From positions 1,302,001 to 1,366,000 of the forward strand of contig NZ_CP091509.1 in assembly GCF_022870885.1 (NCBI RefSeq): 64,000 nucleotides of DNA, in the 5' to 3' direction. Source of the DNA: Neisseria dumasiana. Lineage in GTDB: Bacteria > Pseudomonadota > Gammaproteobacteria > Burkholderiales > Neisseriaceae. Below the pieces are notes generated by a model that was given only the letters and a program-made list of their open reading frames with translations, made no database searches and was not told where the DNA came from. How positions within the stretch are numbered: the stretch's first letter is position 1; each line of letters begins with the position of its first letter. The translations under genes were made by a program, and so were the position numbers. Shown piece by piece: positions 42,008-43,572 of this stretch.

Positions 42008-42036
42008 GCGCAACGGGATTTAATAAAATAAAATGG

Positions 42037-42081
42037 AAAGGCCGTCTGAACACATAAAAAATGCGGGTTCAGACGGCCTTT
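42037..42081. terminator. Bidirectional DUS-pair terminator between dcuB and ribB
   Basis: 14-bp stem, 42037-42050 with 42068-42081. Confidence 0.75.
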
Positions 42082-42104: not shown

Positions 42105-43472
42105 TTATTTGCTTTCCGGAGCTTCTTCAAAACCGACCACTTCCAAACCGAAACCTGCCAGGCCGTTCATGGAAGAGGGTTTGCCCATCACGCGCATTTT
42201 CTGCACTTTCAAACCGGCCAGAATCTGCGCACCGATGCCGTAGGTTTTTCTGTCCCATTTGCGGACTTGGAAGCTGTTTTTCGGCAGCGTTCTGTCTAAC
42301 AATGCCGCGCCGTCTTCGGTACGGTGCAGCAGAATAATCACGCCTGCGTCGGCTTTTTGGATATGTTCCAGCGCTTTGGGTAAAGGCCAAGAATGATTGG
42401 GATCGGCTTGGATAAAGTCCATTACGCTAAACGGCTCGTGCACGCGCACCAAAGTTTCTTTTTCGGGCGACAATTCGCCTTTTACCAAAGCCAAATGCGT
42501 TTCGCCGGAAAGTTTATCAACATAAACGTGCTGCTGAAATTCGCCCCACGCCGTGTTAACGGTGGTGTCGCCCATTTCTTCGAGCAGGCTTTCGGTGCGG
42601 CTGCGGTATTCGATTAAATCGGCGATGGTGCCGATTTTGAGATCGTGTTCTTCGGCAAACTTCATCAGTTCGGGCATGCGCGCCATCGTGCCGTCGTCAT
42701 TCAGAATTTCGCAAATCACACCGGCGGGAATCAGGCCGCTCATTTGTGCCAGATCGACTGCGGCTTCGGTGTGGCCTGCGCGTACCAATACGCCGCCCTT
42801 CTGGGAGCGCAAGGGGAAAATATGGCCGGGTTGCACGATGTCTTCGGGCTTAACGGTGGGCGATACGGCCGTCTGAATGGTTAAAGCACGGTCGGCGGCG
42901 GAAATACCGGTGGAGATGCCGTTGGCGGCTTCGATGGATACGGTGAAGTTGGTGCCGTATTGCGCACCGTTTTTCTGCGTCATCTGAGGCAGGTTTAAGC
43001 GGTCGACCAGCTCGTCGTTCATCGGCAGGCAAACCAAGCCGCGGGCGTGTTTGATCATAAAATTAATGGCTTGCGGCGTTACAAATTGCGCTGCCATAAT
43101 TAAATCACCTTCGTTTTCGCGGTCTTCGGCGTCGGTAATGATAACCATCTTGCCGGCTTTGATGTCGGCAAGAATATCGGAAATAGGGGAGATATGGCTC
43201 ATTTTGGGCTTGTTTTCCAGAGGTGTTTGAGAGTGTGTAAGGGTAGGGGATTCGGCCGGATTGCCATGAACGGTGTCCAGCCACATGGGCGGCATACCCA
43301 CGGATTGCTCGATTTTTCGGGCTTTTTTTTCACCGAATGATTTGTTTTTCAACAGTGAAGATAATTCGCCCTGATTGATGGAGGCTGCTGCGGCAAACTG
43401 CACCTGCTGCCCGCCGTGTTGCTCGATAATCCATTGGCGCAAATTATGGCGGCGCAAAGCGGCAATATCCAT
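42105..43472 (-). CDS. ribB: HTH-RibB-RibX fusion: 3,4-dihydroxy-2-butanone-4-phosphate synthase with N-terminal repressor-like domain
   Basis: 455 residues. Residues 1-65 form a phage-repressor-like helix-turn-helix: [20 protein letters not shown] and [20 protein letters not shown] linker rich in Pro and Thr leads to residue 91, where the usual neisserial protein would begin ([17 protein letters not shown]). RibB core: [13 protein letters not shown] and the [11 protein letters not shown] region. The C-terminal part resembles GTP cyclohydrolase II but has [12 protein letters not shown] where active enzymes have SECLTGD, and no zinc cysteines, so it is a RibX-type remnant. Two palindromic operators overlap or flank the promoter, suggesting self-regulation. 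A separate internal start at 43202 is possible. Confidence 0.85.
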
Positions 43473-43504
43473 AACTAAAGCTTTCAGAAAGTAGGTTGGG
43501 CTGA

Positions 43505-43533
43505 AGTATATTACTAAATTTACCAAATGGCAA
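43505..43533 (-). promoter_or_regulatory. Sigma-70 promoter of the HTH-ribB gene
   Basis: Read on the minus strand: -35 TTGCCA (43528-43533), 17-bp spacer, -10 TATACT (43505-43510); each hexamer is 5 of 6 to consensus. Predicted leader is about 25 nt before the ATG at 43472. Confidence 0.75.
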
Positions 43534-43572
43534 TTTTATAAAGCATATTAAAATTTACCTTTTGGTAAATTT
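43516..43572. promoter_or_regulatory. Two palindromic operators over the HTH-ribB promoter
   Basis: Distal operator 43551-43572: perfect arms AAATTTACC and GGTAAATTT around TTTT. Proximal operator 43516-43537: AAATTTACC-AAAT-GGCAATTTT, an imperfect copy that covers the -35 to -10 spacer. Centres are 35 bp apart. The arrangement is that of a repressor-type double operator. Confidence 0.7.

Follow-up and report, generated by a model that had tools for sequence, protein, structure and literature searches.

Bacterial ribB genes are usually controlled by an FMN riboswitch (RF00050). Enzymes which repress their own genes are represented by PutA, BirA and NadR, and the archaeal protein RbkR combines a CTP-dependent riboflavin kinase with a helix-turn-helix (HTH) of a family different from that described here. 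BzdR is reported to consist of an HTH and a shikimate-kinase-like domain, with loss of enzyme activity (PMC3602430), and the XRE factors of Wolbachia are reportedly HTH proteins which control riboflavin genes as separate regulators, apparently not fused to an enzyme (PMC3518464). In the available passages of PMC9495176, Neisseria is named in four places, concerning PreQ1-I riboswitches, glycine riboswitches and a table, and it does not occur in the available passages of PMC4418817. No description of an HTH-RibB fusion was found in the open-access literature, and nothing found in that literature contradicts the statement of the first-pass annotation that the known riboflavin controls (FMN riboswitch, RibR and RbkR) include no enzyme acting as autorepressor.

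Such a fusion is encoded in the window, the whole stretch of 64,000 nucleotides of Neisseria dumasiana DNA analysed here. We consider it highly probable that its product is a bifunctional autorepressor, in which a phage CI-type domain was captured once, together with an operator pair, in front of ribBX and replaces the FMN riboswitch.

The HTH-RibBX reading frame and its promoter

The reading frame and its upstream region comprise the following features, all on the reverse strand:
43551..43572, minus strand: putative distal operator, a perfect palindrome (AAATTTACC-AAAA-GGTAAATTT), with a counterpart at the corresponding position in relatives
43528..43533, minus strand: -35 hexamer TTGCCA, from the sequence
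43519..43534, minus strand: putative proximal operator ATTGCC-ATTT-GGTAAA, matching 10/12 positions of TTTACC-N4-GGTAAA and overlapping the -35 box, from the sequence and relatives
43505..43510, minus strand: -10 hexamer TATACT, from the sequence
42105..43472, minus strand: HTH-RibBX open reading frame (ORF) of 455 aa with an ATG start, from the sequence and Pfam
43263..43472, minus strand: phage-repressor-type (CI-type) HTH, residues 1-70, from profile, predicted structure and homologues
43203..43262, minus strand: variable linker, residues 71-90, from the alignment (pLDDT <50 at residues 71-91)
43200..43202, minus strand: ATG within the frame (Met91), probably the original start of RibB, kept in 40/40 HTH rows (defined below)
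42606..43178, minus strand: DHBP synthase (RibB) domain, residues 99-289 (PF00926; E 2.5e-87)
42132..42569, minus strand: degenerate GTP-cyclohydrolase-II-like (RibX) domain, residues 302-447 (PF00925, GTP_cyclohydro2; E 1.4e-35)

The promoter read by the first-pass annotation, TTGCCA and TATACT separated by 17 bp, is found at 43528-43533 and 43505-43510, as is its perfect 9+4+9 palindrome 35 bp farther out, at 43551-43572. The near palindrome of the same annotation (16-base core at 43519-43534) also exists, but it is not restricted to the interval between the two hexamers, as the -35 hexamer forms part of its left half-site. The two palindromes represent the same motif, TTTACC-N4-GGTAAA, at a distance of 35 bp. 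The best operator score in the 200 bp upstream was reached by 0/100 shuffled versions, generated by first-order Markov resampling rather than exact dinucleotide shuffling, and this, together with the conservation of the pair across relatives, argues against its occurrence by chance. In the presence of palindromic operator sequences next to its own promoter, the locus resembles those of phage repressors. If transcription is assumed to start 7 nt past the -10 box, the leader measures approximately 26 nt and is therefore too short for a riboswitch; the window yielded no Rfam matches, and RF00050 is not present in the leader. An alternative longer ORF, with a TTG start at 43526, would begin within the operator and promoter. 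Directly after ribB, an inverted repeat (GCCGTCTGAA / TTCAGACGGC) is located at 42035-42080, resembling a Neisseria uptake-sequence terminator.

The N-terminal 90 residues give a weak, sub-cut-off match to Pfam HTH_3 (E 0.022). A profile of the HTH family, when compared with solved phage repressors, matches 7nkv and 8c3k (E 2.6e-8), 8c3l (4.5e-8) and 5d50 (1.3e-5), and helices are predicted at residues 3-19, 23-30, 34-42 and 48-57, in a block with a pLDDT of 75-89. The predicted model superimposes on 5d50 at 1.2 Å over 70 columns, with a weak E value of 2.9e-3. The phage-repressor type which had been assigned to this domain in the first-pass annotation is thus upheld by the profile matches and predicted helices, and the class is further reflected in stand-alone relatives sharing 38-62% identity. 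Differences at codon positions 1, 2 and 3 of the HTH amount to 0.201, 0.181 and 0.403, which indicates constrained coding sequence under purifying selection. DNA-binding domain and enzyme are located in one chain, as in autorepressing (trigger) enzymes.

Although the ORF, the HTH and the coordinates of the proposed N-terminally extended ribB frame all hold, the enzyme is RibBX and not plain RibB. The DHBP synthase domain is present (TIGR00506: 256 bits against a cut-off of 177.45), and the ORF reaches 43.3 bits with the ribA model TIGR00505, for which the cut-off is 205.85. In the alignment of RibX with E. coli GTP cyclohydrolase II (2bz0), non-cysteines are located opposite the 2bz0 cysteines, presumably the positions of the three zinc cysteines of the functional enzyme. 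As judged from its sequence, this domain does not qualify as a functional GTP cyclohydrolase II, which identifies the enzyme as RibBX and not RibBA. In a Foldseek search with the whole chain, the first match is RibBX of Acinetobacter baumannii (6mnz; 50% identity, 362 columns). The RibB part of the whole-chain model was poorly predicted (17 rows; mean pLDDT 61.2), and the HTH alone was used. The full-length homologue search took in proteins of 0.55-1.75 times the query length, placing stand-alone repressors outside its scope; PF00926 was found in 120/120 of the homologues considered, the best 120 of 288, and the homologue alignment shows a RibB core with hardly any variation and a retained RibX.

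The linker around Met91 varies, while the ATG stays in 40/40 HTH rows, such that a second, HTH-less product may be made from this codon. A Shine-Dalgarno-like match precedes Met91 in 35/40 rows, compared with approximately 40-41% at ordinary codon positions, which is weak evidence because the rows are related. The coding constraint on the HTH argues against translation from 43,202 as the sole start, which the first-pass annotation had named as a finding that would speak against its proposal.

Distribution of the HTH, its operators and the FMN riboswitch

A search with the HTH alone against the genomes of 84,980 species returned 29 loci. Sixteen of these belong to Neisseria, Bergeriella and Eikenella, N. 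gonorrhoeae included, and run into RibB, with both parts in one frame in 15/16 and split in N. weixii (L007); the remaining 13 are found in other bacteria, in frames which are not RibB. The survey of neisserial ribB N-termini called for by the first-pass annotation covered 83 genomes of the family of N. gonorrhoeae, 78 of them with a readable RibB, as well as the window; weak matches not derived from RibB (G043, G046, G072 and G076) and a partial RibB (G080) were left out of the counts. The HTH occurs in 39/78 genomes, 37 with a fused and two (G007 and G032) with a split arrangement, and these 39 genomes plus the window constitute the 40 HTH rows. In the latter two (L090 of N. weixii, G007; L085 of G032), the HTH and RibB frames differ, and the two parts would therefore be separate proteins. 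An IMG/VR contig filed as viral (L204) carries the HTH-RibB fusion from the chromosome of a Neisseria, and its filing is probably an error. Mapped onto the tree of RibB, presence of the HTH requires seven changes, which implies that, if captured once, the HTH was lost several times.

Operators were scored in the 200 bp upstream against TTTACC-N4-GGTAAA, with 9/12 or better counted as high. High scores were obtained in 38/40 HTH rows (the exceptions being G016 and G028) and in 0/35 rows without the extension, where the maximum is 8; in relatives which, on this view, have lost the HTH, the operators are missing too. Four rows with another HTH on RibB (G061, G062, G064 and G067; see below) were excluded from the latter count. 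Their score of 10 was rejected as a promoter operator, given that it derives from within the HTH coding sequence, and the best score upstream of their ATG is 7-8. The 17-bp gap between the -35 hexamer, within the proximal site, and the -10 hexamer is retained in 34/40 HTH rows. Where both sites are present, their spacing is 35-42 bp in 31/33 rows, a range which exceeds half a helical turn. Some HTH rows keep one good site only, the proximal site being the better conserved, and the distal site is poor in three (G006, G008 and G016).

A search of the 83 genomes with the tandem-operator pattern gave 19 matches in 19 genomes, 19/19 of which fall in the promoter of ribB in genomes with the HTH, and the reversed control pattern gave 0 matches in the same 83 genomes. 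In N. gonorrhoeae (G009), TTTRCYNNNNRGTAAA matches twice genome-wide, at the two ribB operators only. The matching operators of the first-pass annotation are thus borne out, in that operators accompany the HTH and the tandem pair is confined to ribB in the 83 genomes. With the single-operator pattern, matches in most of the 12 genomes searched are no commoner than with the reversed control, and single sites beyond ribB can therefore not be claimed. No conserved operator was found at ribA, ribD, ribE or ribH, where single matches are scattered; together with the control-like frequency of single sites elsewhere, this leaves ribB as the demonstrable target, so that one gene of the pathway would be governed. 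A single match considered as a sign of a wider rib regulon (L196) proved to be the proximal site of ribB itself. At this locus (G051; L035/L196), ribE immediately precedes the ribB promoter in the same orientation and ribH follows a short distance downstream; ribH is also close downstream of ribB in G001, G002 and G053.

Under the stricter filters, RF00050 exceeds the cut-off in 5/83 family genomes, none of which carries either HTH; the carriers are four deep-branching HTH-less relatives (G017-G020) and G059. Under laxer filters, RF00050 was found in 0/11 HTH genomes and in 2/2 outsiders (Xanthomonas and Paludibacterium). The FMN riboswitch was rejected as the control of the window ribB, as there is none in its leader or in the 11 HTH genomes. 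Thirty HTH-less genomes have neither the HTH nor RF00050, which indicates that riboswitch loss is not tied to the HTH only. As many close relatives thus lack both HTH and riboswitch, the control is dispensable.

Stand-alone repressors and a second HTH on RibB

Stand-alone relatives of the HTH were collected from 13 loci in species genomes and 66 of 67 loci on viral contigs (L017-L029 and L205-L270). The repressor frames are 108-249 aa long, and their HTHs are up to 62% identical. For the operator test 65 of 80 loci were kept, duplicates and the RibB fusion L204 being dropped. At least one TTACC-N4-GGTAA site (9/10 or better, within 150 bp upstream) is present in 60/65 of these loci, against 0.52/65 expected from shuffles by the same first-order Markov resampling, and 50/65 have two or three sites. 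The commonest layout consists of two sites approximately 40 bp apart, like the ribB pair. The recognition-helix region NQGELS is common to many of the stand-alone repressors and the fusions. In the HTH tree, the 35 distinct fused HTHs are placed on one side of a branch with an SH-aLRT of 99. Close phage relatives were not found in an annotated phage collection, where the 18 records matched all have <60% identity. A single capture of the HTH domain along with its operators is the simplest account. G018, which has no HTH on RibB and retains the FMN riboswitch, encodes a stand-alone repressor whose HTH is of this class (L117, G018:C1:1874000-1876500; 61% identity, 231-aa frame), indicating that elements of this class reach the family.

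A different phage-type N-terminal HTH is present on RibB in G061, G062, G064 and G067 (L105, L103, L107 and L102, respectively), with no significant similarity to that of the window. Its nearest stand-alone relative, with 73% identity across 83% of the query, is P0132, a repressor of the LexA family which measures 252 aa, includes an S24 peptidase domain and is encoded in G064 itself; DNA relatives of P0132 were not confirmed among the viral contigs. The promoters of these fusions contain TTGTTATATAACAA in 3/4 and ATTGTTATAATACAAA in 4/4 genomes, approximately 40 bp apart. The P0132 region harbors TTGT/ACAA palindromes which resemble, and are not identical to, these sites, and their correspondence with the free repressor's operators is no more than suggestive. 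Phage repressor domains and operators would apparently have been taken over twice, with different domains.

Proposed mechanism, alternative readings and known systems

On the comparative evidence, auto-repression of ribB is by far the most economical reading, because the operators track the HTH, the tandem pair is restricted to ribB and the near operator covers the -35 hexamer. In an ancestor of much of the Neisseriaceae, the CI-type domain of a temperate phage would have been captured along with the pair of operators cognate to it. As DHBP synthase is dimeric, the enzyme would bring two HTHs to a palindrome, the RibB dimer substituting for the phage repressor's own C-terminal dimerisation domain. 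Occupation of the proximal site would keep RNA polymerase off the -35 box, such that the enzyme, once enough had been made, would shut its own promoter. The distal site would probably raise local occupancy, its variable spacing (35-42 bp) arguing against a rigid activating contact. Finally, the autorepressor would take the place of the FMN riboswitch of more distant relatives. The fusion and its conservation, the operators, their co-occurrence with the HTH, their identity with those of stand-alone repressors of this HTH class and the absence of the riboswitch are observed; that the protein binds DNA, represses, dimerises through RibB and has replaced the riboswitch is inferred.

The repressor could furthermore be gated by a ligand, substrate or flavin having been suggested in the first-pass annotation, with ribulose-5-phosphate bound by RibB, or a flavin or nucleotide bound by the degenerate RibX domain, altering its affinity for DNA and making it a metabolic sensor rather than a level-keeper. 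This is a tentative reading, somewhat short of an even chance. It would fit the nearly invariant RibB core, the retention of RibX and the usefulness of another means of sensing flavin to HTH genomes without an FMN riboswitch; RibBX, however, occurs without an HTH too (6mnz), and its conservation is therefore no argument for sensing. We regard it as very unlikely that HTH-RibBX, bound at the distal operator, acts on its own promoter as an activator, or as activator and repressor alike, in the manner of lambda CI at PRM. That operator is located approximately 65 bp upstream of the presumed transcription start, a distance within the range of upstream activators, yet of the two sites it is the proximal one, lying over the -35 hexamer, that is better conserved, the distal spacing is not fixed to one helical face, and the distal site is poor in G006, G008 and G016.

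That the N-terminal region is a relic without function, or an upstream ORF annotated in error, with only RibBX from Met91 being made, is scarcely credible: the invariable Met91, its short Shine-Dalgarno-like match in 35/40 rows and the two genomes with the parts in different frames would agree with it, and the coding constraint on the HTH, its co-occurrence with operators and the identical operators of phage-type repressors oppose it. A captured immunity repressor, serving mainly to silence phages with TTACC-N4-GGTAA operators and steadily expressed by virtue of its position at ribB, would account for the correspondence between the ribB operators and those of the stand-alone repressors. Among the matches listed, no HTH genome has a second close copy (the best other being G038, 36%), and the HTH-less G018 carries one stand-alone relative (61%). 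Such phages may nevertheless be absent for other causes, and the operators at ribB itself call for no such role, which we regard as distinctly unlikely. A broader version of the autorepressor reading is rather doubtful. In it, RibB would be a recurrent acceptor of at least two unrelated phage domains with their operators, flavin would be sensed via the active site or RibX, and the Met91 form would dilute the repressor; phage silencing may persist alongside.

If the autorepressor reading is true, it provides for protein-based riboflavin control in bacteria seemingly without an FMN riboswitch, namely N. gonorrhoeae and commensals, and a clean case of a metabolic enzyme acquiring both the DNA-binding domain of a phage repressor and the operators belonging to it. 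Because gains, losses and a swap have occurred naturally, the co-evolution of domain and operator is directly testable.

Among known systems, RibBX of A. baumannii has the same enzyme architecture, but neither the N-terminal HTH nor the operators. With the CI/C2-type phage repressors (7nkv, 8c3k, 8c3l and 5d50), the locus shares the HTH, the operator and the pairing at approximately 40 bp; the C-terminal part of phage repressors is, however, not RibB (in P0132 it is an S24 peptidase), and here what looks from its sequence like an active enzyme stands in its place. Instead of an S24 or oligomerisation domain in a prophage setting, DHBP synthase and RibX are found at a chromosomal ribB locus. 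RbkR is alike in being a flavin-pathway enzyme with an HTH, but the enzyme differs, Pfam giving DHBP synthase, GTP_cyclohydro2 and a weak HTH_3 only in the window protein. The riboswitch that serves ribB elsewhere is absent from the window. PutA, BirA, NadR and BzdR likewise combine DNA binding with an enzyme, or with a domain derived from one, and control transcription, but with other enzymes and other HTHs, and none is known to act on riboflavin synthesis. Self-repressing enzymes are thus already known, and what would be new here is the enzyme, the origin of domain and operators from a phage, and a riboswitch that has apparently been replaced.
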